DNA of 64,000 nucleotides from Tetracentron sinense (Eukaryota > Streptophyta > Magnoliopsida > Trochodendrales > Trochodendraceae), in contig CM026565.1 of NCBI GenBank assembly GCA_015143295.1, positions 27,908,052 to 27,972,051 of the forward strand, in the 5' to 3' direction. Shown here in pieces: positions 1,658-58,343 of this stretch; position 1 is the stretch's first letter, and each line of letters starts with the position of its first letter. The position numbers were made by a program, and so were the translations under genes. Below the pieces are notes generated by a model. The model ran no database searches. It was given only the letters and a program-made list of their open reading frames with translations, and was not told the origin of the DNA.

Positions 1658-4600
1658 TCGCGGTTCATACTAGTAGGTAGCAAAGTAGGTAACACTGGTC
1701 CAAATTAATGATCCTTAAGCAACATAAATCCCACTTTAGTAGTCTAACATTTTGACACGAGAGTATGATAACCATTAAAAAATAAAAGGAAAATAATCAC
1801 CTCCTTGGCCGATGACGCGACGAGGGCATCTCGGGCCCCTTCTTCTGCCATGTGTCCCCTGTTAAGTCCCTTCTTTTAATTGTGGTTAAGATTCATTCAC
1901 CCTATGGTCCCCACATCTATCCATGTTTTTTAGAAAATAAAATAAAAATTAACTATAGGGGTAAAAAAAAAAGTAACCAGAGTTCATGGCCATTGAAGGG
2001 GCTTGTGATTATTCAAAACAAAACTAGTAACTAGAGATGAATTACTAATGTCATTGATTAAAGGTTTTTAGTATTAGAAAATAGAAAGGATCTTTCCAAA
2101 CAGCCCAATAATCATTAAGTGGAACACTAATGGCAACGTGGCACTCATCTTAAAGGCCTCGAATTCTCTCTAGCAAAACCAGAAATGGTGGTCTCGGGCT
2201 ACCACAATGTGCGACATGTGGCTGGAGAAGTAATTTCATTGTTGCTCACAGATTCTCTCTGGCATGCCAGAAAAGTGGTATCAAGCCACCACACATTAAG
2301 CGCCATGGTGATCAGAAAAAAGGGGAGAAGTCATTTCATTTTCTCCTCATGATTTTGACTTCTCCCCACTTGATATCTTTCCTTCTTTTTCTCACTATTT
2401 TATCGCTAAATGTTGCAACATGTGTTTAGAAGTTAAAATCATGGGGGATAAGAATTTGACTTCTCCATCACATGGTGCTTAATGTGTGGTAGCCTGAGAC
2501 TATCTTTTAGGCATCTGTCCTAAAGAATTCAAGGGCTTCATTGTCCCATGATTTTGACTTTTTCACACATTATGCGGTATTAGAGATAAAATTATAAGTT
2601 AAGGAGGAGAGATAACAAGTGGAGGAAGTCAAAATCATGGAGAGAACATAAAATGATGAAATAATGTGTGGTACACCTAGACAACCTTTCTGGCTTCCCC
2701 ATGGACAATTATGAGCCCGCCTTAAAAGGACCTGGGCAGAGTCGTAGACACTGTCCCCATACATGAGAGGTGGAACAATTTCTCGTTAATATATCGCAAT
2801 ATTTATAGGTATTTTCTCTCGAATATATCGTAATAACTCGATATTTTCTCTTCATAATGCCGAGAACTATCCTTTTCACCAGCTTATCTCGTATCGAATC
2901 ACGTGATCCTTTTTGCATCATAAATTACCTGTGGCAGATAATGTAATATGTGGAAATGTTAGACCTAAACTAAGTAAGGCCCCGTCCGAGCAGTTTTGTC
3001 GTGCTCTTAGTCTAAGAAAAATTCCTAGAATCACGCGCATATAAATGAGCGTGAACTCATTTTCCATATCCCTGAATTTTCTCATCCGCATGATATCGGA
3101 TCACAGTCAATAGGGATTGAACTTGGAGAGAGTTCAATCGGCATTGGATTGTCTATAGATATCAAAAAAATCCTCTTGGCTTCCATGCATCATACGACAT
3201 GTGGCGATAAAGGGAAAAAATCATTTAATTTTCGTTCTCGTGTTTTGTACTTAGAACAATAGTTTGCTCCATTGCCGAGGATTACTCGCTCTCACAAAGC
3301 CACCCATTCAGCCTTCCATGAACTCGGGTTAAGTCGTTTTAACCCTATAGTTAAATTTTATATTTTATTTTTCTAAACACTAAAGGTAGAAGAGTAAACC
3401 CTAGGGGTTAATGAATCTGAACCACAGTTAAATAGAACCAAAAGAAGGACACATGACATTAAAATGGGACCTGAGACGCACCTCCTCGTGTCACCAACCG
3501 ATGAGGTGATTATTTTCCTTTTACTTATCCCCACTTGATATCTCTCCCCATTTTATCACCACGTGTCGAATGATGTGTAGAGCTCGAGAGAATTTTTTTG
3601 GCATCTCCCATAGACCATCTAATGTCATTTCAATCACACTCACAACTCAACATGTGTCCATAGTAACCCCTACTATTGTCGTTAAGATTTACGAACTCTT
3701 AGGGTTCAAGTGATTGAATCAGAACCAATTGCGATTGAATTCAGGCAAAGATCAATCACACCCACAGGCCAATACGTGCCCTTTAAAATCTTTATTAATT
3801 GTGGTTAAGATTTACTAACCCTTGGAGTTCAACACTATAACTATAACTTTTTTTTAAAAAAAATTAACCTTAAGGGTTACAAAAATTTAATTAGAGTTAA
3901 ATATCTTTAATACTTTTTCTAAAAATCAAGATTATAATGTTGAACCTTAATGTCTAGTGAATTTTAACCACTATAAATAAGAGATAAAATGGAGACATGT
4001 TAGCTTGTAGGTGCGATTGAACTCTCCTCAAATTCAATCACAATTCGAAGTGATTCGATCTCACTATTGGATTAGTTTAGCCATGATTTTTAAAAAAAAA
4101 TTAAAAAATTTAATGCTAACTAATAACTTTTAACTAGTTAATATTTTTTTTACATTCTTTCTTGAAAAAAAATTTCTCCTTTTTTTTTTGGACTTCTCTA
4201 TTGCCTCTCCTTTTTTTATTGCCACATGGTGGAAGCAAAAACAAGGCAAGACGGTCGCAAGACCAAATCCAATCCCAATTGAACTTTGAACCGCGATTGG
4301 CTATGATTAAGATCTCCATTTGCACTGGCGGTGTCTAACACGCGCTCTAAAAGCAACTGAACTAGTTTATCTTTTAATTAAAGGGACAGTTGTCTGAAAA
4401 AGATTCCGTGCCGATAAAGTCGACAAAACGTAGTCGCTCTACTGGGACCCATTTCAACTGCACTTATAACTGGTACTGTACTTATCATTTGATAAGTAGA
4501 ATAAACCCAGGAAATAAGTCCAGTAGCTTATCTTCTGCAATTTGTCGCCTCTCCTTATAAATCCTCTTTTTCTGCAACTTCGATGTCGTATTTTTATTTT
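1658..4600. other. Intergenic region with degenerate hairpin-type MITE debris
   Basis: I find no gene. The stretch holds several diverged copies of short words that recur elsewhere in the window, such as 'GACTTCTCCCCACTTGATAT' (about 2350 and 15930) and 'TTAAGATTCATTCACCC'-like text (about 1890). At about 2284-2500 the outer parts are inverted ('CACACATTAAGCGCCATGG' against 'CATGGTGCTTAATGTGTGG'), which marks a decayed MITE. The last few hundred bases should contain the promoter of the TOPLESS-family gene. Confidence 0.5.
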
Positions 4601-32707: not shown

Positions 32708-35700
32708 TCAGAGGCCAATGCCCAAGCCTAACGGGATCCCATTGGACTTGCCATGATTATTATGGTTGCACTGGGAGGAATGAACATGACCATGGTGGGG
32801 TCTTGTGTTCTTAGAATCTACATCAATAGAGACATGGCCATTGCCATTGGTGTGATGACTATGATTCTCCCCATTTTGCAGATTCGAATTCCTTGCCATC
32901 TGCATCATTCCAATCCCCTCGGAATGGGCTGGGTCTTCGATGCACTCCACATCCTCATTGTAGCCATTGATCAAGAAATCTGAACAGTTCTTTCGGATCC
33001 CATGATCATACGGGTTTCTGAACCGACCACCTGGGCCTCTTAGGTAGCTATAGCGCATCACGTTTGCCATTTCGTTCGTTGTAATGTTGCGAGATATCTG
33101 CAGCAAGAAAAGAAGTGGTTCAATATTACACAGTAAATTGCACAAATAATTTGTGTTAACCTCAGTTAAATCGAGTTAGATTACATCACTGTGTGATTCA
33201 TGATCCTATACTGCAGTGTTTGCCCCACTTATGTATACTTTACTTCAACCAAAAAGAAAAAAGGAAAAAAAAAGTGTCATTTTAACCTGCATCACATTAG
33301 ATGTGATACAAAATGGGCTTCGATCGACCTTCAGATAATGAATTGGATAGTGTTGGAGTCGCTAATTCATGCCTCAGCATTGGTATGCTAATCCTAACTA
33401 CTATTGTAGACGAATTATCCATGTACCTGAGAAGCTTGAACAACAGTTAAGACTGCAACACCAAAGAAGAGGAAGAACATCACAATAAGAAATGATACAG
33501 CCCCAGTATGATGAGTCCCAGCATGGCTTATCCATGCTCCAAAAGTAGATGGAGCAGTTGGATCCGTCAAGAGTCCTGCATTGAGAATAATTGTTCATTT
33601 TCTTTTAGCAGATGAAGACAACAATGTTGCTAAAAGCAACTCCAAAAAATGGCTTAAAGAGGAACACATTTAAGAAGAGGCATACTTATAGAAGTGACGG
33701 CACTGGTAATCAGCATTGCAGAAACTTCTAGAACAAGAAACCAGATGAAATCCCATTTATTTTTCTGTAATCACAAGTCAGTCAGCTGTTCAGATCAAGG
33801 AATACTACATCAATACTCATTCATAAGGGGGAAAAAGTAGCCATCAGCAAGAACATAAGGAGAGTCTAACAACTTCATTGTCATACATATGCAGTAAGGC
33901 GGGACAGACAATTCTACGAGCCACACCTAGGAAATCTCCAATCCCATAAATTTACTCAGTCAACTGATTGTAACTATCCTGACTGACATTCTTCCCAGAC
34001 TATTCGCGATACTTTTCCAGCCAGTAAAAGAATGTCATCGGAAGGATGTTTAGGATCATTCAATCTGGTTGGATTTTCACTTCAGAGATTACTACCACGT
34101 TCCATGGGTCCCACTTCATGAATGCATGTTGTAACTGTTGGTAGACCATCATTGTGGTCTACCTGATGGTTATCTTATGTCCCCGTATCCATCAAGATCA
34201 AGAGATCACACAAAAATAAGACAGGAAGATTGAAGATGCAGTTCATCAATTTCAAAGCACCTTGCCAATACAATTTGATACCCAAGGGCAGTGATGATCA
34301 AATTGTTCAACACAACGATCACAAGTGGAACAATGCTTTGAACGAAGAGGCCTGACAATCTAATAAACAAAGTAAAATGAAACCACATTAGATATTTGTC
34401 AGATGGGTAAGCACTGTTCAAAGAAACCAATCCATAAAAAGGGAAAGAAAACCAGAAGTAGAATACACCTTGCATGTTGCACAGAGCTGAGACCAATTCC
34501 CAGCCAGTAGAGCAGGATTGTTCAGCTCAGTCTTCAATAAAGGTTCCTATTAAAGAATTCAAAAAAACATAATTGTAAGCTGCTTTAGCCTTTAAGTGGG
34601 GGAAAAGGTATGTCTAAGATTCAGATTTAAGAAAATTCCAAAAAAAAATCCACAGCCCATTTAAAGGTAAAGTATCCGGATCTGAGAAATTAGTGAGCAA
34701 GAGTGAGACCAGGAATGACAATTCCAAATGGAAGAGATCAAGTAGCAAAAGACTGCAACTCACATCATCTTTTAGATTTTGTGAATCATGTACATTCCTT
34801 CTGATATAACCTGGATCTTTCCTACAAGGATAAAAAAACAAAAAAAACAAAGATCAAATAAGACCTTAACTACAAATCTATGCATGCCCATTCAATGTGG
34901 CTGATTAGTGTAAAAATCAAACTACCAATCTATGCATGCCCATGCAATGTGGCTTATTAGTGTAAAAATGTTTATTTACTAACTGAAAATATGTCCAAGG
35001 AGAAGTCTAAGCATGCTCGTTCAATGAGGCAGTCGATTAAAATGAAATATCTAAGATGTGCAAATATAAACTTACAGATTAAAAGAGCGAAAAACAAACC
35101 ACCCTGACAACACGAATACTACCACATATTATCCCCTAATCAGTCCCATTATTGTTAAATCTAGCATATAATGATAAAATAAAGACCGCGGTGGCATTTA
35201 TACATCAGGTAATAAGAAAGGTAAGCAACTCAACAGCATTTGGAATAGAAAATCGCATGGCAACAGCCAGTTTAACAATTAATCTGAAATATCCTCAAAA
35301 TGAATAACAAGACAAATAATATAAAAACAAGGAACAATGTAAATAACCGTTTGCTTGTACCACCCGATTAAAAAAAAAAAGACTTTTCGCGTGTATTATG
35401 TATAAAAAAAACATTGAAGTCCCAACAAGGCAACAATAATGAGACAATCAAGCATTGGCCATGACTTGAGAGTTGTGCTCTCCCATTCTCTTGGAGATGC
35501 AAACAAAACTCACCAATTCTTTAGCTGGAAAAGGTATGCACTTACATTGGAATTCTATTCCTTATATTTGTATTTTTATTTTCTCCATTTTGTAGTTCAA
35601 TTATTTCAAAAGCAGGAAAAAGAGGTAAATTTTCAAAACAAGTGAAATTTAATGGGAATCACATAGACCATGTCTTTATCCATGGGATTACTAGTAGATA

Positions 35701-44700: not shown

Positions 44701-47700
44701 TTGCATGCTCTCTCTTACTGAAAGAATATCCAACCTTGTATCGGCATGCATCCCCTCTTGCATAAAATCTCAAACGAAGCATGATCTGGCAATTCAAGAC
44801 TCTACCACATGGCTCACTTTAGTCTTTATGAGTAAAGCTTTTTAAAATGCATCCCTAACTATATATATATAACATACAGACTTCAATTATCATTTTTCCA
44901 CAACAGTCCCCTTGCCCATTTTACACAAACATCTTAAAACTTAACTTCCGAAAATATAAAAGCATTATCAAGAACCTACTAATCAGAAAACATCTCTCTA
45001 ATCATTTTTCCTATTAGATGTTACTTATTCAGACATTTCTTCCAATCGTCTTTGTTAATTTTTTATTTTTTATTTTTAAACGGAAACAACTTCGGGTTAA
45101 CCAAGATAATATAGTGTGGAGCTCATCTAAAAGGGTATTTTAAAGTTGAAACCAAAATTAACAAACTATTAGCGAATGTTTCAAGTTCAATCCACTAATC
45201 AATATAAAAAATACTTTGGTTATAGAATACCTACAAGGAAGAAAGCAACTTGTTTATGATTCTTATCAGAAGCAAGTTGTGCTGGCGTAAAGCCAGTGTT
45301 ATCAGTCACCGTCAAGTCCTCTTTCTTCCCTGCTTGCACTAGCACTGTGCACGCCTCTAAGTTCCCCCTTATAGCAGCCCAGTGTAGAGGGGTACAACCT
45401 AAAGAAATAAGGTTGAAACAAGAGTAAGGAGTAACAGTTCATCATACAAATATTTAACTGACAAGGGAAGTCAACCTCACTCTGTTAAATAATGAAAAAA
45501 ACTGTTGAAAAAAAAAGGGAATTAGTGGAAGAAATAATATGCCATATTACCCTCTTTATCCTGTCGCCCCCTATACGCATCCAGAAATAATAGAAGGCGT
45601 ATACAATCGGGAAAACCTTTATAAGCAGCCCTACAAAGATCAGGAGAAGAACAAAGACATAATCACTTGACATGCTATAATAATGAGCGCATCTAAAATT
45701 TTTCTTAATGCAAGGACTAGTAGTCTAGTAGCCATGCTGACTCGAAGACTAAAGAAAGTCAATTTGGCTGGAATTTTTCTATAAGGTATGCACCCAAGGC
45801 CAAGGGAGCTAAGTTGTTGATGTTATTCATCGCCACAAAGAAAGGTTTTGGGTTACTTAAAATATATAAGCAGTCGAAATTGAATTGCACATCATGATAT
45901 ACTCAAACATAACAAGTACAAATATGCTAGCCACTTACATAAATGTATTTATAGCCAAGTCAACAGTTTACTTTTCACAGAAGCAAAGAGTGGAAGATTT
46001 CATGTACCAAAATAGTGGGTTTCTTCCACCTTCATAAGGGACATCTGGAGCAGCATTAACTTTGTAATATGTTGCACAGGTACGGTTTCATTCAAGCAAC
46101 GGAATCCATTAAAAGTACACAAGTTTAAATTAGGCGAACACCCCCTCCCCCCACCCAAGAAAAACACTCTGGATTTGGGAGAATATGCTTCCAATAACGT
46201 AAAAGGTAAATATAATAAAAAAGGGTGCTAAAATGGGTTATAGTGGATTATATAAATATGTGTGTGTGTGTATTATCATTTTATTTATCCGTATAAAAGC
46301 TTTCTACTAAAAGAGGTTAATTCTAGCCAAATGCCAATTAAATTATTTTCTAAGGGAATAAAATAGAAGAAAATCCTGTAGTATCATACAAAATTGTGAA
46401 ATGTTGAATACCGACTCTTGCAACATGAGTGCTATCCCCATTTAGAATACTCTAAAAGATCAATATAGAATAATAGATAGTTGAATATGACAGCCACAAA
46501 CTAAATGAGTGGTTTACGTAAATGTAACTGAAAGAGGGTGGCTGAGACAAATATTACTCAGAAAAAATAAAAAGAAACAAAGGTCAAAGCTTTCATGTAC
46601 CAGTGGAGAGGGCTTCTTCCATCATTATCAGGAATATCAGGATCAGCATTCCATTTTGTAACAATATGATATAGGAAAGCTGTCTGACCATATTGTGCTG
46701 CAACATGACTTGCCTGCAATCAAATCAAATTTGATCAGAAGAACCTTCAGGCAACTGTTTCCCAAACATTCAGCAGTAAAAAGACCACCCCTCGACCTTA
46801 CTGACACTGAAAATGATATATAAAGCCACAATCATTGAAAGTGGGAGAACAAAAGAATTCATTCCTTTTCCTATCAATAATCGACCTGATATTATGGTAC
46901 TTTTACTTTAAATTTGAGATCAAAAAGTAATTAAAGATTCAAGTATGAATAGATTTCTCCATTCTTTGTGAACACATAAATTGATAGATTCCTATTGGGC
47001 ATGCAACTTAAGCCATGGTTCAAAATATCGGTATCGGTCACCGTATCGGTTAGCCCAAAATAGGATACGTATCGGCGTATCGGTACCGTATCGGTTGGAT
47101 ACGGCGTAAAAATTCAGGATACGCTAAAAAAAGCTTGGATACGCAAAGAAAAACTTGGATACCTTATATAAAATCTCTTTTAATGCCAATATAAGCTAAA
47201 AATAGACTAAATGAAGGCTTCCAACTACATTTATAATCATACATATGAGAGTTATAAAATTTATAAGTTAAAAAAGACGTGCGCACTGATAAATATGTAT
47301 GAAAATACAAACCATAACAACTTAACCAAGTGATAAAAGCTCACTTGCATAAATTAACTAGGGTTAAAAATTATTAACCTTAGGGGTGTGATTAATAGTC
47401 ACTAAAATTAAGGGATACATGTCTAATCTTGGTTGTTAGAAATAAATATTAAAAAAATTAACTAGGGTTAAAAATTCTTAACCTGGGTGTGATTAATAGT
47501 CACTAAAATTAATGGATACCGGATACATGTCTAATCTTGGTTTTTAGAAATAAATATAAAAAATATTAATTAGGGTTAAAAATTCTTAACCTTAGGGGTA
47601 TGATTAATAGTCACTAAAAGGGACACATGTTTAACCTTGGTTTTTAGGAATAAACATTAAAAAAATTAACTTGAGTTAAAAATTCTTCACCTTAGGAGTG

Positions 47701-50700
47701 TGATTAATAGTCACTAAAATTAAGGGATACATGTCTAATCTTGGTTTTTAGAAATAAATATAAAAAAAATTAACTAGGGTTAAAATTCTTAACCTTGGTG
47801 AGGCTAGCACTCCTCGAATAAGGTCATGAATATCATAACATCTGGTTGAGTGAGGCTAACATTCTTCTAATCATAGTTCAAAATATCGATACGTATCGGC
47901 CGATACGGGCCGATACGTACCGGTTTTTCAAGGATCCGATACAGAGGCACGTTGGAAAAAATAAAATGCTCCGTATCGTGCTCGATACGACCGTATCGTG
48001 CTCGATACGACCCGATACGGATCTTTAACAGTTCAAAAAAAAAAATTTGTTTAACATCCAGAAAAAAAAAAAAAAAAAACAGGCAGAGATTCGAACAGAG
48101 ATTGAGAAGAAATTAAGAAGAAGAAATTGAGAAGAGATTGGGAAGAAGAAAAAGAAAAAAAAAATAGATTTTTTTATTGAAGGAAGATTAGGGATTAGGG
48201 TACATACCTGTGCCAGACCACTGTAGAGTGCCATCGCCGTCTTCTTCCCGTCGCAAAATCGAGGAGGAGGAGTGCTTAGCCTTGCTCCTTTGCACTGTCG
48301 TCCAGTCTCGCCCCTTTCCCTCTTTCGGCCAAGGTGAGATTTGAGAAGATAAGTCTGCGTATTTCTTTTCTACTGTTGAAGTCCTTATCTTAAGTATTGA
48401 AAGAGGAATGCTAGCATCACTCAGCCACCACATATGCATGACCTTATTAGAGGAATGCTAGCTTCACTCAGCCACCACATATGCATGATCTTATAAGAGG
48501 AATGCTAGCCTCACTCGGCCACCACATATGCATGATCTTATTAAAGGAATGCTAACCTCACACAGTCACATATGCATGATCCTATTAGAAGAATGTTAGC
48601 CTCACTCAACCAGATGTTATGATATTCATGACCTTATTCGAGGAGTGCTAGCCTCACCAAGGTTAAGAATTTTAACCCTAGTTAATTTTTTTTATATTTA
48701 TTTCTAAAAACCAAGATTAGACATGTATCCATTAATTTTAGTGACTATTAATCACACTCCTAAGGTGAAGAATTTTTAACTCAAGTTAATTTTTTTAATG
48801 TTTATTCCTAAAAACCAAGGTTAAACATGTGTCCCTTTTAGTGACTATTAATCATACCCCTAAGGTTAAGAATTTTTAACCCTAATTAATATTTTTTATA
48901 TTTATTTCTAAAAACCAAGATTAGACATGTATCCGGTATCCATTAATTTTAGTGACTATTAATCACACCCAGGTTAAGAATTTTTAACCCTAGTTAATTT
49001 TTTTAATATTTATTTCTAACAACCAAGATTAGACATGTATCCCTTAATTTTAGTGACTATTAATCACACCCCTAAGGTTAATAATTTTTAACCCTAGTTA
49101 ATTTATGCAAGTGAGCTTTTATCACTTGGTTAAGTTGTTATGGTTTGTATTTTCATACATATTTATCAGTGCGCACGTCTTTTTTAACTTATAAATTTTA
49201 TAACTCTCATATGTATGATTATAAATGTAGTTGGAAGCCTTCATTTAGTCTATTTTTAGCTTATATTGGCATTAAAAGAGATTTTATGTAAGGTATCCAA
49301 GTTTTTCTTTGCGTATCCAAGCTTTTTTTAGCGTATCCTGAATTTTTACGCCGTATCCAACCGATACGGTACCGATACGCCGATACGTATCCTATTTTGG
49401 GCTAACCGATACCAATATTTTGAACCATGCTTCTAATAGGATCATGCATATGTGACTGTGTGAGGTTAGCATTCCTTTAATAAGATCATGCATATGTGGT
49501 GGCCGAGTGAGGCTAGCATTCCTCTTATAAGATCATGCATATGTGGTGGCTGAGTGAAGCTAGCATTCCTCTAATAAGGTCATGCATATGTGGTGGCTGA
49601 GTGATGCTAGCATTCCTCTTTCAATACTTAAGATAAGGACTTCAACAGTAGAAAAGAAATAAACAGACTTATCTTCTCAAATCTCACCTTGGCCGAAAGA
49701 GGGAAAGGGGCGAGACTGGACGACAGTGCAAAGGAGCAAGGCTAAGCACTCCTCCTCCTCGATTTTGCGACGGGAAGAAGACGGCGATGGCACTCTACAG
49801 TGGTCTGGCACAGGTATGTACCCTAATCCCTAATCTTCCTTCAATAAAAAAATCTATTTTTTTTTTCTTTTTCTTCTTCCCAATCTCTTCTCAATTTCTT
49901 CTTCTTAATTTCTTCTCAATCTCTGTTCGAATCTCTGCCTGTTTTTTTTTTTTTTTTCTGGATGTTAAACAAATTTTTTTTTTTGAACTGTTAAAGATCC
50001 GTATCGGGTCGTATCGAGCACGATACGGAGCATTTTATTTTTTCCAACGTGCCTCTGTATCGGATCCTTGAAAAACCGGTACGTATCGGCCCGTATCGGC
50101 CGATACGTATCGATATTTTGAACTATGACTTAAGCTGGGCTCAACCCGAGCCCGACTTTTAATTCTGGATGAGTTGGCCGTCTCAAATGTAGGGTTGGTC
50201 TTGGGTAGAGGCATCGGGCAACCCAAACCTTCCCCCAAACTGAAGAGGGGGTAAATGCAAAATTAGCATTTTGGAGGAATGCATTGGAATTTAAGGGTTT
50301 TAAAATTAGTCGGACCAAGACAATATAAGAAACATAACTTTAGTAAAAACATAAATAGAGTGGAGATTAAATTACGGCTGATGACCAAGAGATACCCCAA
50401 AGCGACCCATTTGTATTCATAAGGATGGAGATATAGAATAGGATACTAACCACAAAATTAGAGTTGGGTGGCTAAAGTAGGTAGTGCTTCTGGAGTGTTA
50501 TGTGACTGACCCATACCTATCAAACTACAAGGAAAATTTTATAGGACAACTAAGCTTTATGGAGCAGAATATTTGGCCACTAAGAGTAAATGTATTAATA
50601 AAGTAAAATAGACAGGGTGAAGATGTAGGCTAATGCTATTAAAGAGAACTTAGGCAACTATGCTCACTTACTTCTTACCTTCGTTAACCATTCCTACATA

Positions 50701-53700: not shown

Positions 53701-56700
53701 TAGCCTTGAAGACCGTGACAAGTTAAAGTGTAATCACTAATCATTGTGGATGGAGGATATGCACTAAGGAAAATTGTTGGGATTTGGTAGGCCGACCACA
53801 GAAGTTCAACAGGCCTGGTTAATCTACTGCTAATAATGCCTCTACAGGAGATACTACTAGTCCAGTTATCTCTCGATCTTCAACTACTTGGGCCCCCTAG
53901 GAAGCCTCACATGGTACTTTCTCCCACAAGGATATAATCGTTGTCTCTAAGGACAAAACAAAGAATATTTGGTGTTTCATGGCTCAGTTAGACAGTCCAT
54001 CAACTACTTTTACCTCCACTTCTGCTCACCATGTGTCTACTTCTTCAAATTCCTCCTAAAATATTGACTCAGGTGCTTCTGAGCATGACTGGTATGCCTT
54101 CACTGTTTCTACTTACTCTGTTTGTTCCGGTGGAGATAAGGTTCGAGTTGCAGATGGCACCCTCTCCTCTATTGTTGAGAAGAGATATGTTACTCTTCCT
54201 TTCCACCTTTTCTTAACATTTGTTCTTAATGTTCTTGATTTTGCAACAAACCTTCTATTTGTTAGTTCCCCTCACCAAAACTCTAAATTATAGTGTCACT
54301 TTATTTCCTTCTTACAATGTTTTTCAAGACTTGGTAACGAGAAAGATGATTGGTACGGGCCGTGAAGCTGCTAGCTTAGTTAAATGCGACTCCCACTATT
54401 CCTCAAGCATTTCAATCTTATAGTATAGTAGTCTTGTGTTGACATGCCCATCTTGGTCATATTTAATTTCAATACTTATGAATTATATTTCCAGATCTAT
54501 TTGCTTCTTTATCTATGTCTGAACTTCGATGTGAAGTGTGTGAACTTGCAAAGCACCATCGTGCGTCCATTTCTCCTAGTACTAATAAAAATTTTGTTGT
54601 ATTTGATATCATTCATAATGATGTTTGGGGCCCTTCGCATGTTGCTTTTATTTATAGTTATCGATATTTTGTGAGTTTCATTGATGATTATTTTACATAA
54701 ACTTAGATTTATCTCATGAAGTCGAAAAATGAGGTATATACCATTTTCAAACAATTTCATATGTTGATTCAGACCCACTTTAAAAAAATGGTCAAGATTC
54801 TTCGATCTGATCAAGGAGAATAATATATATGTGAGGGGTTGACGGAATATTTGACTACAAATGGAATAGAACATCAGTATTCTTGTCTTTGTCCCCCAAC
54901 AGAATGATTTTGAGAGAAAAAGATGTCACCTATTGGAGGTAACTTGTGCTCTTCTATTACGATGTAATGTTTTAAAGTTTTTTTGGGCTGATGTTGCACT
55001 TTCAGTCCCCGTCTCATCTCTTAAAACTCAGGAGTCCTCTGTTTCTTATTCCCCCCAAGGTGACTGGTTGTGTTTGTTATGTGGATATATTGGGTCCCAA
55101 CCGAACTAAATTGAATCCTAATACTCTTAAGTGTATTTTCTTAGGTATTCTTCTCATCATAAGGGATACAAATGCTATCATTCTCTTCCCCGAAAGAAAT
55201 TTGTCTCCATGAATGTTACATTTTTTGACTCAGTTCCCTTCTATTCCAATCATTTCTCTCTTCAAGAGGAGAGTGAGTATGAAGAGAGAAGGATTATGTT
55301 TCTCATTCCGGTTCCTCCTCTTTCATCATTGGCTCTTCATGACTCTATTACTACTGCTCAAGAATAGAACGTTACAAAACAGGGAGAGATTCAAGTCTAC
55401 CAAAGAAAGACTAAAGCAAACACAAACTCAAGTCAAATCATCTCCTCGGATCCAAGTAAAATCCTCTTTGTAAGTACTTCACCTTGCTCTCCAGTGTCCA
55501 TTGATGAATCAAATATTCCTATTACTCTCAGCAAGAGTAAGAGATTGTGTACTCAATATTCTATTGCTAACTTTGTATTGTACAAAACGTTGTCTCCTTA
55601 CATGTCATTTGTGTCTTCGCTATCATCCATTCTCATTCCATCTTTTATCACTGAAGCTCTAAAACAACAAAAGTGGAGCGAGACAATGGTAGAAGAGATG
55701 GCTGCGCTGGATAAAAATAATATGTAGAATATGGTTGACCATCCTCAAGGAAAAACACGTGGGGTGTAATGGGGTGATCATAGTCTAAGTGCAAGGCATA
55801 TAGATCAATTGAGAAGTATAAGGCAAGGTTGGTAGCCAAGGGCTACACTCAGACATATGAAATCAACTACCAGGACAAGTTTTCTCATGTGGCAAAGATG
55901 AATTCAATCTCTGTAATTTTATCATTAGCAGGTAGCCAGTTGTGGACATAACAAAGTCGGGATTCGGAATAATTCAGTTGGGTCTAGTTCGAAAAAATTC
56001 GACGGTCGGGAAAACTTCCAAAAAAAATGGAAACAATAAAAAAAATTATTATTATTATAAAGAGAAAATAACATGATACCAACCATAGTTACTAAGTCAG
56101 AGTTTAAGAATTATTCGTCCAGGAAAATTTTTGGAAATTTTGACAAAATTTAAAAATAAATTTTTTTGTGATCAGTAATCGATTGAATATATATAAAGCA
56201 AAAGGATAAACAATACACCAAAAAGAGTTTACAAGTGAGTAAACCCAAAAAAGGAAAGCAAGGATTCAAATATAACCACAGATAAGGACCCCCTTGCAAG
56301 AAAAAAATAGAGAAAACCATAAAACCTCAAACCAATTTAAAAATAAATTAGTAAACATCCGGTAAGATATGAAAAATATTAAATAAGATAACTAATTATT
56401 AAATTATAAACAAATATATTTTATATATTAGATATTTATTCGGGAAAAAGTCGTGAATAATTCGTAAAATTTGTGATGAAAAGTTATGATTTTTTCAAAA
56501 AGTCGTGGATAGTTCGGGAATTAATCGTTCGACGAAAAGTCGCATATTATTCAAGAATTTTTTAAAAATAGAACTTTCTTACTATGGTTGTGGCTACTAT
56601 ACCAACTTGGTGCAAAAAAATGGTTTCCTTCATAGTACTGTGAAGGAAGAAGTTTATATGGCTCATCCTCCAGAATTTCACTTTGAAGGGGGGAAAAGAA

Positions 56701-58343
56701 GGTGTGTAGACTAAAGAAGGCATTATATAACTTAAAGCAATCTCCTAGAGCCTGGTTCAAAAGGTTCAGTCCGGCATAAAAAGGGAATACTCACAAAGTT
56801 AGGCAGATCATACCTTATTCGCTATGCTGCTCATGCATATCAAGGAGGATATTAAAATCCTTATCATGTATGTAGATGATATAGTTGTGACAAAGAGCAA
56901 TAGAATAGAGATTGAACAACTGAAGAAGTATCTAGCAAGTAAGTTTGGTATTAAGGATCGGAGTGTTCTCAAGTACTTCTTGGGAATAAAGGTTGCTAGA
57001 TCTCGTGAATCCCAGGTAGGGAACTTTTATTTAGAAAACATTGATAAATGCGGACTGAGGCCTATCTAGATGCAAACTAGGTAGGTGCTAAAGATGACAG
57101 AAGATCTACATTAGTTACTGTACATTTGTTAGAGACAATTTGATTACATGGCGAAGTAAAAAACAAACGGTTGTTGTTGCTCGAGTGCATACGCAAAGTT
57201 TCAATCAATGGCACATGATATATGTGAGTTGCTATGGTTAAAGATCTACATTCAGGAATTAGGATTTCTTGTTGAAGGGCCTATGAATTTATACCTTGAC
57301 AATAAGACAATAATCAATATTGCTCATAATCCAATTTTACACGATAGAACCATATATATATATATGAGTGTGTGTAGGTGTGTGTGTATCATTAAATTTA
57401 TCTCGTCCTTTCATGAATCCATCTTCTAAGAATTCTTAGCCAGTTTCTAAAATTTAACTAAAACACTGTTTAAAAACAAGAAACATGGAAAATATATACT
57501 AACCTGATAACCATACAAATCAGCAGCATTTACGCGAGCACCCTCTTGGAGTAAGAGCTCGGCAACCTGAATTGCACCCCTCACAGCACACCAGTGTAAT
57601 GCCGTCTGCCCAGTGTGATCAGCTGCATGTACATCTCCCCCATGCTGGAAAATAAACAAAAAATATACTACTTGTTTAATACTAAAATTCCCCAATTACA
57701 TTTAGTAAATTTTGAACAGAAAATTAGAAAAATAAAAATAAGCATAACGTTAAGTTTCTTCCATGAGCACAAATAACAAGAAATTCCATCTAATCCAGGG
57801 TGATAAATTTTCTTTTTAATAAACTCATGAGCAATTCAAATGTATATGTACACAGTTCAACCGAAAACTTATAAAGAAACAGAAAATATAGAACAACAAA
57901 TCCCCTCTAGCAAGTTAGCAAAAACCCTCCAAAATAAGGAAAACAACGAGGAATTTTATTTTATTTTTTTGGGCAAACTAACCTACAAACTCAAATCTTC
58001 AATAAACAGATTCAAATCAAGAAACCCACCAAAAGATTATTCATTTGAAATCACAAACCTCAATTATATACTGCGCAGCCGCGGTACGATTGTTCAAAGC
58101 CGCCCACTGCAACGCATAATAGCCGAGCCCATCGGGTTGAGAAACAGAGCAATCTTCGCATTCCACCAACCTCTGCAACTTCTCCAAATCACCATAAGCC
58201 GCCGCCGTGTAAACGTCGTTCCGAAGAATCTCATCGGCGCCACCAACACCGTTCGCCTCCCCGGAAACCCCAATACCGCCGGTCCCGGCAGCCTCGCGAT
58301 CTGGACATTCTACTTCATCAACGACCTCGATCTCAGACGCCAT
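32708..58343 (-). CDS. PAT24: Ankyrin-repeat DHHC protein S-acyltransferase (TIP1/PAT24 type), 13 coding exons
   Basis: Exons in order of translation: 58343-58059, 57644-57504, 46713-46601, 45630-45551, 45398-45235, 37915-37777, 37681-37582, 34821-34764, 34546-34469, 34359-34261, 33764-33686, 33575-33427, 33097-32708. They sum to 1875 bases, 624 residues, in phase, all GT-AG; Arabidopsis TIP1 has about 620. The protein starts [12 protein letters not shown] and has ankyrin repeats (about 60-260), two transmembrane segments (about 286-308 and 317-335) and the cysteine-rich domain. That domain has C382, C385, C396, C399, C402 and the catalytic D407-H408-H409-C410. Then come two more transmembrane segments (about 424-445 and 465-492), TTNE at 501-504 and a His/Asn-rich tail ending PLGLGIGL. 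By family knowledge it transfers palmitate to cysteines of membrane proteins at the Golgi/plasma membrane; TIP1 governs root-hair and cell growth. All key residues are present. Introns 2 (10.8 kb), 5 (7.3 kb) and 7 (2.8 kb) are swollen by insertions. Confidence 0.96.
35746..37165 (+). mobile_element. 5'-truncated L1-type LINE (intron 7 of PAT24, antisense)
   Basis: Plus-strand pieces encode the end of the reverse transcriptase ([20 protein letters not shown] and [15 protein letters not shown]), the [11 protein letters not shown]-like block, and the zf-RVT region ([28 protein letters not shown], then NHL). Several frameshifts and stops separate them, so it is dead. The 5' half, with ORF1, endonuclease and RT fingers, is missing, as is usual after incomplete reverse transcription. 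The tail is (TA)n then TTTTACCAATAAAAAAAGG. Confidence 0.85.
37163..37520. repeat. Tandem duplication of about 180 bp at the LINE tail
   Basis: CATTTTACCAATAAAAAAAG, GACAGATAGAAGTAAC, CAGCAAATAACTAAACT, TCCCTCACTC and TATGTATAATTAAATGACAC recur in the same order, first from about 37163 and again from about 37343. The copies differ in the length of the (CA)n tract and at a few bases. Confidence 0.85.
38915..39261. mobile_element. 347-bp hAT-like MITE (intron 5 of PAT24)
   Basis: The perfect terminal inverted repeats are CAGTGTAGTCAAGGC / GCCTTGACTACACTG, with a perfect 8-bp target duplication TTCTCAGG (38907-38914 and 39262-39269). CAGTG fits the hAT end consensus. Both ends are tiled with GCCTAGGCG words, so each arm can also fold on itself. 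The centre is AT-rich and non-coding. Confidence 0.9.
39788..40039. mobile_element. Fold-back element tiled with GTTACGTAAC (intron 5 of PAT24)
   Basis: The left end is TATGGTTTTAAAAAAAGCCG and the right end, read inverted, is CAAGGTTCAAAAAAAGGG. Both arms are made of CCGTTACGTAACGG and GAAACCG words. TGAGTAT occurs at both borders (39781-39787, 40040-40046) and may be a target duplication, though its register relative to the ends is uncertain. It is non-coding. Confidence 0.65.
40047..42370. other. Intron 5 sequence without an assigned element
   Basis: I see no coding domain. On the minus strand CTTTCTTTATAAATAGACAC (about 41150) resembles a TATA-type promoter within an LTR-like stretch (about 40440-41500), but I cannot define its ends. 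Confidence 0.35.
42377..42850 (+). mobile_element. Ty1/copia fossil: RNase H end and start of LTR
   Basis: The stretch around 42430-42540 is recognisable as the copia RNase H region (RSDYHVFLG, then LSWLTKKQ, then SEYRSLAS). It ends in the LRGSV motif usual just before a copia 3' LTR, and TGTCAAATATTA at about 42820 could be the LTR start. Only this end of the element is left; it is broken and old. It lies in intron 5 of PAT24, antisense. Confidence 0.65.
43040..44210 (+). mobile_element. 5'-truncated L1-type LINE (intron 5 of PAT24, antisense)
   Basis: Pieces match the C-terminal part of plant L1 ORF2: [20 protein letters not shown], then WRKVI, then [13 protein letters not shown], then a zf-RVT-like and terminal region with [17 protein letters not shown] at about 43920-43970. 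Several stops and frame changes are present. The tail is GATACTTACCAATAAAAAAA. A short duplication, CCCTACATTAGGTT, lies at about 43257-43290. Confidence 0.8.
44220..45230. other. Intron 5 sequence next to exon 5 of PAT24
   Basis: AT-rich; no gene, RNA or defined element is recognised. Confidence 0.4.
46008..46082 (-). pseudogene. Decayed duplicate of PAT24 exon 3 inside intron 3
   Basis: The minus strand reads CATATTACAAAGTTAATGCT, then ATGTCCCTTATGAAGGTGG, then GGAAGAAACCC, then TGGTACATGAAA. The true exon 3 has CATATTGTTACAAAATGGAA, then ATTCCTGATAATGATGG, then GGAAGAAGCCC, then TGGTACATGAAA. The resemblance covers the 3' half of the ankyrin exon, its splice donor and a few intron bases. 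Small length changes destroy the frame, and no acceptor-side half is clear. The position about 600 bp downstream of exon 3 points to a local tandem duplication. Confidence 0.7.
47872..49429. mobile_element. Class II element (inner copy), inserted into its own kind
   Basis: CATAGTTCAAAATATCGATA opens the copy, and CATGGTTCAAAATATTGG closes it on the other strand. The 8-bp target duplication is CTTCTAAT (47864-47871, 49430-49437). The unbroken junction AACATTCTTCTAATAGGATC survives, read inverted, inside the inner copy at about 48578-48597, so the insertion point is exactly known. Subterminal arrays of CGATACGTATCGG-type words make both ends self-complementary. The copies differ at only a few positions where I compared them, so both insertions are fairly young. 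Confidence 0.9.
48190..48330 (-). other. Exon-like, possibly captured gene start within the inner element
   Basis: On the minus strand a CT-rich and GC-richer leader is followed by ATGGCACTCTACAGTGGTCT (MALYSGLAQ) and then CACAG|GTATGTACC, a good splice donor. The same segment is on the plus strand of the outer copy (ATG at 49787). Base composition differs sharply from the AT-rich surroundings. It looks like the leader plus first coding exon of a host gene picked up by the transposon. I do not recognise the parent gene. Confidence 0.55.
50690..51945 (+). mobile_element. 5'-truncated L1-type LINE (intron 2 of PAT24, antisense)
   Basis: Protein pieces include [86 protein letters not shown], then [19 protein letters not shown]. 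These are the C-terminal RT/zf-RVT part of plant L1 ORF2. It is interrupted by several stops and frame changes. The tail is TCATTATTACCAATAAAAAA. It is the best preserved of the three LINE fragments here. Confidence 0.88.
52074..57350 (+). mobile_element. Ty1/copia retrotransposon fossil (intron 2 of PAT24, antisense)
   Basis: Parts in order: a probable 5' LTR of about 230 bp (TGTTGACAGGGG to about 52302), a primer-binding-like TTGGTATCGGAACAGG, gag (from about 52914), the GAG-pre-integrase/integrase region (about 54510-54840), reverse transcriptase (about 56620-57000, with YVDDIVV) and RNase H (about 57210-57345). The order is that of Ty1/copia. A 3' LTR is not seen. The element is broken with many breaks and looks old. 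A second element of about 620 bp sits within it at about 55950-56570. Confidence 0.88.
55950..56570. mobile_element. AT-rich insertion inside the copia fossil
   Basis: Between two stretches that belong together in copia reverse transcriptase lie some 620 bases of unrelated AT-rich sequence with GTCGGGATTCGGAATAATTC, CATAGTTACTAAGTC and GTCGTGAATAATTCG words. These resemble the element at 17835-18645. The borders are approximate. Confidence 0.45.

Follow-up and report, generated by a model that had tools for sequence, protein, structure and literature searches.

A hAT-type element nested in inverted orientation within its near-identical copy in Tetracentron sinense displays a double Ds-type architecture

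The double Ds of maize, in which a Ds element lies inverted within a near-identical copy and the directly oriented ends break chromosomes, has held a central place in research on chromosome breakage by transposons. A natural nest of this kind, formed by two copies of a non-autonomous transposable element, is described here within a 64,000-bp stretch of Tetracentron sinense DNA (the window, C15:27908052-27972051), which belongs to a searched genome of 1,161,278,568 bases in 1479 contigs. The size of this genome and its gene content, with an ankyrin/DHHC gene and Copia-type reverse transcriptase fragments, accord with a plant. According to PMC3744419, when closely linked Ac/Ds elements on sister chromatids present their 5' and 3' ends in direct orientation, these ends undergo sister-chromatid transposition, accompanied by bridges and breaks. 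For maize B73, a survey (PMC3260210) reports that no chromosome-breaking double Ds was detected, suggests that nested Ds elements are selected against, and notes one Ds-l4 inside a Ds-l3. In a literature search covering few subscription papers this survey was the only source found to bear on natural structures resembling double Ds. The kind of structure is known, and the new part is its natural, persisting instance. With an intact nest now available from a different hAT family, and open transposase frames present elsewhere in the same genome, the rarity of such structures and the survival of this one can be investigated.

The nest consists of an inner element and an outer element, each bordered by its own exact 8-bp target duplication (Table 1), the outer one spanning positions 47014-50127 and measuring 1548 bp once the insert is removed. 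The repeat finder returned crossed inverted repeats of 829 nt for one pair and of 532, 122 and 87 nt for the other, reproducing the interleaved B-A-B'-A' order that the original prediction had read from this region, and the borders it had proposed for both elements and both duplications hold. Alignment of the outer element with the reverse-complemented inner element revealed 1531 identical bases among 1536 aligned, the 5 substitutions being accompanied by gaps of 12, 2 and 20 bases. The joined flanks of the inner insertion define a 58-base empty target that is found complete (58/58) in the inner copy, where the unbroken junction had been predicted to be readable in inverted form, and at 56 of 58 positions in an independent copy on C2. 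Because the empty target is readable in both copies, the inner element must have inserted into an already existing outer element, and the proposed insertion order holds. More generally, it is the exact duplications combined with a close third copy that make the order of events readable. It is thus confirmed that the inner element lies inverted inside the outer element as the result of two separate insertions. A fold-back or a single inversion was rejected, since the two elements have separate duplications and an uninterrupted target exists in two copies. No second haplotype or empty outer site was found, the left flank (46200-47013) having other matches of only 73-79% (C9 and C5) and the right flank, beyond its own match, only 67-79% elsewhere among the best 40 of 854 candidates. 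Long, near-identical inverted repeats are difficult to assemble and the structure is known here from the assembly alone, which raises an assembly artefact or a recombination product (inverted duplication or fold-back) as a substitute for two insertions. This explanation is extremely improbable in view of the exact 8-bp duplication of each element, the empty target in the independent copy, the indels that distinguish the copies and the left flank, which has no other close match.

Table 1 Coordinates of the nested elements and of the surrounding gene segments (positions within the window)
Feature	Position	Strand	Remark
Outer element, left target duplication ACTTAAGC	47006-47013	.	
Outer element, left part, 858 bp	47014-47871	+	Starts with R-type (CATGG) end; final 8 bases double as the inner element's left target duplication
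Outer R-type terminal repeat CATGGTTCAAAATATCGGTA	47014-47033	+	
Longest inverted repeat (829 nt), first arm	47043-47871	+	Pairs with 48584-49412; repeat finder; mostly paired in predicted RNA fold
Inner element, left target duplication CTTCTAAT	47864-47871	.	
Inner element, 1558 bp, inverted relative to outer	47872-49429	-	L-type (CATAG) end at 47872, R-type end at 49429
Longest inverted repeat (829 nt), second arm	48584-49412	-	Repeat finder; predicted RNA fold
Inner element, right target duplication CTTCTAAT	49430-49437	.	
Outer element, right part, 690 bp	49438-50127	+	L-type (CATAG) end at its close
Outer element, right target duplication ACTTAAGC	50128-50135	.	
Open frame with ankyrin-like exon, low-coordinate side of the nest	46558-46719	-	Pfam Ank 20.7 bits, cut-off 21.1
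Open frame with further ankyrin exon	45220-45438	-	Domain search
Open frame with ankyrin exon, other side of the nest	57447-57695	-	Domain search
DHHC palmitoyltransferase motif	34264-34323	-	Same strand as the ankyrin frames

The four element ends occur in the order R(+) at 47014, L(+) at 47872, R(-) at 49429 and L(-) at 50127. This arrangement yields one directly oriented R/L pair per side, with spacings of 858 and 698 bp. The composite contains two structural features of the double Ds type, namely a complete element inverted within a complete near-identical copy and directly oriented pairs of opposite ends. Similarly to the maize double Ds, it is built from an element assigned to hAT, displays 8-bp duplications, and has opposite end types directly oriented through inversion within a near-identical copy. 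In contrast to the maize structure, it carries other termini and would depend on another transposase, occurs as a copy in a sequenced genome and not in a genetic stock, probably occupies an intron and is known here from sequence alone. By analogy with Ac/Ds, the composite could break its chromosome if the transposase were made.

The 20-bp terminus has 1046 and 1065 exact matches in the genome (2111 in all), while the reversed-pattern control has none. The genome search with the window element, in which the best 40 of 3965 candidates were scored, and the terminus matches provided 40 loci, 20 of them located around matches to the window element plus one terminus pair and 20 around termini on C1, which were scanned with at most 4 mismatches per terminus and duplication lengths of 5 to 11. 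An exact 8-bp duplication with the same ends was found in 29 of the 40 loci, one mismatch in 2, two mismatches in 2 and no duplication in 7, and in all 29 loci with an exact duplication 8 was the greatest length that matched. Six of the seven loci lacking a duplication have no facing end pair in the sampled stretch, while L038 has both ends and no duplication. The terminus matches, set against the empty control, and the shared borders with 8-bp duplications in 29/40 loci indicate that the borders are not due to chance. The original prediction had named copies with different ends, or with unduplicated 8-bp flanks, as what would refute its borders; 29 of the 40 sampled loci, with the same ends and an exact duplication, speak for them, and L038 is the one locus with both ends that does not. 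The genome-wide search it had suggested for further copies, duplication length and an autonomous partner yielded the 8-bp duplications together with two autonomous-type partners (L057 and L079). At L053 and L058 the element bearing the duplication is a smaller one (~1 kb) within the stretch sampled. Two loci on C1 located 33 kb apart (L068, C1:12453979, and L069, C1:12486618) display the same target duplication (GAGATAGT) and the same flank; here the element was probably copied along with its surroundings and the two loci do not count as independent among the 29.

The window elements are of the CATAG end type, of which 121 exact ends occur in the genome. The termini read CATRGTTCAAA. Members of the hAT superfamily follow the terminal consensus YARNG, which CATRG fits at 4 of 5 letters, the third base being T and not A or G. 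A DUF659 region is present in many plant hAT transposases. The 11-bp Ac termini, C/TAGGGATGAAA in PMC3260210, are not matched, so the elements do not belong to the Ac/Ds family itself. It is on account of the 8-bp duplications and of the hAT domains encoded by partner elements with the same ends that the window elements are assigned to hAT, which replaces the earlier view that their termini were not assignable to a known family. The same two features disfavour a superfamily other than hAT. As for a printed name, the word GGTTCAAAATATCGG was not found in the literature searched.

Both partner elements have matching ends and a target duplication, GTAGAGAC in L057 (L057:499-7216, 6718 bp) and ATCATTGC in L079 (L079:566-7481, 6916 bp). 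The frames of L057 encode DUF659 (E=1.5e-54, 184.2 bits, cut-off 34.7) and Dimer_Tnp_hAT (PF05699; E=6e-11, 42.4 bits, cut-off 21.4); a candidate BED zinc finger scores just below its threshold (20.5 bits, cut-off 20.6), and the coding frame is broken by a stop. In L079 a 613-aa open frame contains DUF659 (E=1.7e-55, 187.3 bits, cut-off 34.7) and a separate 425-aa open frame contains Dimer_Tnp_hAT (PF05699; E=1.1e-10, 41.5 bits, cut-off 21.4); a BED zinc finger was not among its domain matches at E 0.001. Used as a genome query, the DUF659 piece found 131 matches, 131 of 2216 candidates having been scored; 13 of the matches span nearly the full query at 96% identity or more. Eleven of these lie in stop-free open frames of 607-617 aa, one carries a TAG and one is L057 itself. 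Of the 13 matches, 11 lie on contigs covered by the listed CATAG-type ends (100 of 121); 9 of these 11 have an exact CATAG-type end in the correct orientation 3.1-4.8 kb upstream, and those on C14 and C8 lack one.

The inner element matches L057 and L079 over 71 bp at its beginning (94%), 325 bp at its end (88%) and the tandem array (~77-83% in the longer matches), the other interior matches being short and restricted to short upstream pieces that include no transposase frames. The matching ends and these shared stretches identify the window elements as non-autonomous members of the same hAT family, which would be moved by the partner transposase. The terminal stretches shared with an autonomous-type element recall the non-autonomous Ds2 type of maize. 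In Ds2, however, according to PMC3260210, ~200 bp at each end are common to the autonomous element and the interior is unrelated, whereas sharing in the window element is unequal between the two ends and extends to the array.

That array is formed by units of ~100-108 bp and is found inside the element at 47351-47798 and 48657-49104, and in L079 the corresponding array (L079:1548-2796) precedes the transposase frame that opens at 3577. Longer arrays occur elsewhere, for example at C18:9273191-9275605 and C9:34601350-34603641. Autonomous-type copies on C9:34599696, C18:7927456 and C985:17848 display array matches at near-equal spacing, which may be due to a haplotig or else to segmental duplication or transposition in the recent past. 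A second tandem repeat, of ~47 bp, lies within the element at 48385-48657 and 49452-49620, and it was into this repeat that the inner insertion, marked by CTTCTAAT, fell.

A 481-bp interior segment is present at 99-100% identity only in the inner copy, in the outer copy (where it is split by the insertion) and in the copy at C2:27302449, the next match reaching 83% among the best 40 of 89 candidates. Substitution distances are 0.33% between inner and outer, 0.96% between inner and C2, and 1.03% between outer and C2. When substitutions were polarised with the C7 copy (L032) as outgroup, and array limits set roughly by hand, 8 derived substitutions were common to inner and outer relative to C2, 6 of them outside the arrays, while 5 were derived in C2. 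The inner and outer copies are thus the closest pair of the three, with C2 more distant from both. The earlier claim that both insertions are recent stands in relative terms, the inner-outer distance being about one third of that to C2, while the outer insertion is dated only by its perfect duplication. Plant mutation rates range from 1e-9 to 7e-9 per site per year, and under these rates the inner-outer split would fall roughly 0.2 to 1.6 million years ago if it coincided with the nesting. Any gene conversion acting between the arms would give the split too young an appearance. The family is large, as its 2111 exact termini attest, and two of its members could in principle have become nested by chance. 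This is very unlikely, since the inner and outer elements are the mutual closest relatives found, among three close copies, and no other CATAG-type pair lies within 10 kb (counted by eye over 100 listed of 121 ends). The three-copy subfamily itself disfavours chance nesting, a random insertion into one of two targets of the same subfamily having a probability of ~2.7e-6.

The data are best accounted for, with reasonable but incomplete assurance, by a non-autonomous hAT element that transposed, back to front, into its sister copy, thereby giving the double Ds-type architecture. In this sequence of events the outer copy would first be replicated, one sister copy would then probably be excised by the family transposase, and the excised copy would insert inverted into the other sister copy, duplicating CTTCTAAT. 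Most simply, the outer copy itself would have served as donor, through its sister chromatid. Such a route has a parallel in the replicated Ac/Ds elements that, as stated in PMC4270019, can transpose to unreplicated sites. Relative to C2, the inner copy displays 2 private substitutions and a 12-bp loss and the outer copy 3 private substitutions and a 20-bp loss. These changes on each side also suit a donor that was a sibling copy located elsewhere, most likely at a linked site, which inserted into the outer element by local transposition and not by self-insertion, its source copy being later lost by excision. A cut-and-paste donor need not leave a copy behind. A sibling donor is possible and distinctly less probable than self-insertion, as no other equally close copy was found in the assembly among the best candidates scored and the near-even split of the private substitutions is what divergence after nesting would produce.

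Several observations nevertheless weigh against parts of the self-insertion account. Two of the 8 derived sites common to inner and outer fall in the arrays and another in an A run, and at one array site the outer copy instead agrees with C2. The private changes in both copies suggest that inner and outer may already have differed at nesting. hAT elements favour linked targets, so the chance figure given above overstates the surprise. The copy counts depend on the best candidates (40 of 3965 and 40 of 89). Finally, that the composite has survived speaks against strong recent breakage, over the last generations at least. Self-insertion into the sister copy remains the preferred reading of the nest, whose two elements form the only CATAG-type pair within 10 kb in the listed set.

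The nest appears to be located in an intron of a minus-strand gene containing ankyrin and DHHC segments, between the frames at 57447-57695 and 46558-46719. The intron was placed there because of the likeness of this host gene to plant TIP1-type palmitoyltransferases. The minus-strand RNA of 47006-50135 has a predicted fold of -1814.9 kcal/mol, in which 865 pairs join bases over 500 nt apart; one adjoining 3130-nt control stretch reaches -697.3 kcal/mol, and the inner copy by itself (1558 nt) -410.3 kcal/mol. This far stronger predicted fold and the probable intronic position are consistent with the composite also being a hairpin-RNA locus, a function compatible with the explanations of its origin discussed above. 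Transcription of the intron would then generate ~830 bp of double-stranded RNA and small interfering RNAs (siRNAs) directed against the family ends, as proposed for Mu killer. Such a function is rather unlikely, considering that inner-element matches to the partners comprise ends, array and short upstream pieces and not the transposase frames, and that the intron RNA may just be spliced out and degraded. Mu killer of maize is described in PMC3440606 as an inverted duplication of transposon sequence, whose read-through transcription was proposed to yield hairpin RNA. The composite is likewise an inverted duplication of transposon sequence that might be transcribed into a hairpin. In contrast, it derives from a hAT and not a Mutator element, and Mu killer includes transposase gene sequence, whereas none was found in the window composite. 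More doubtful still is a combined scenario in which self-insertion created a breakage configuration in the host intron and siRNAs from the ~830-bp hairpin of the same layout silence the family ends, suppressing the transposase that would cause the breaks. Fragments of a Copia-type reverse transcriptase (RVT_2) are found at 55784-57069, between the same two ankyrin frames.

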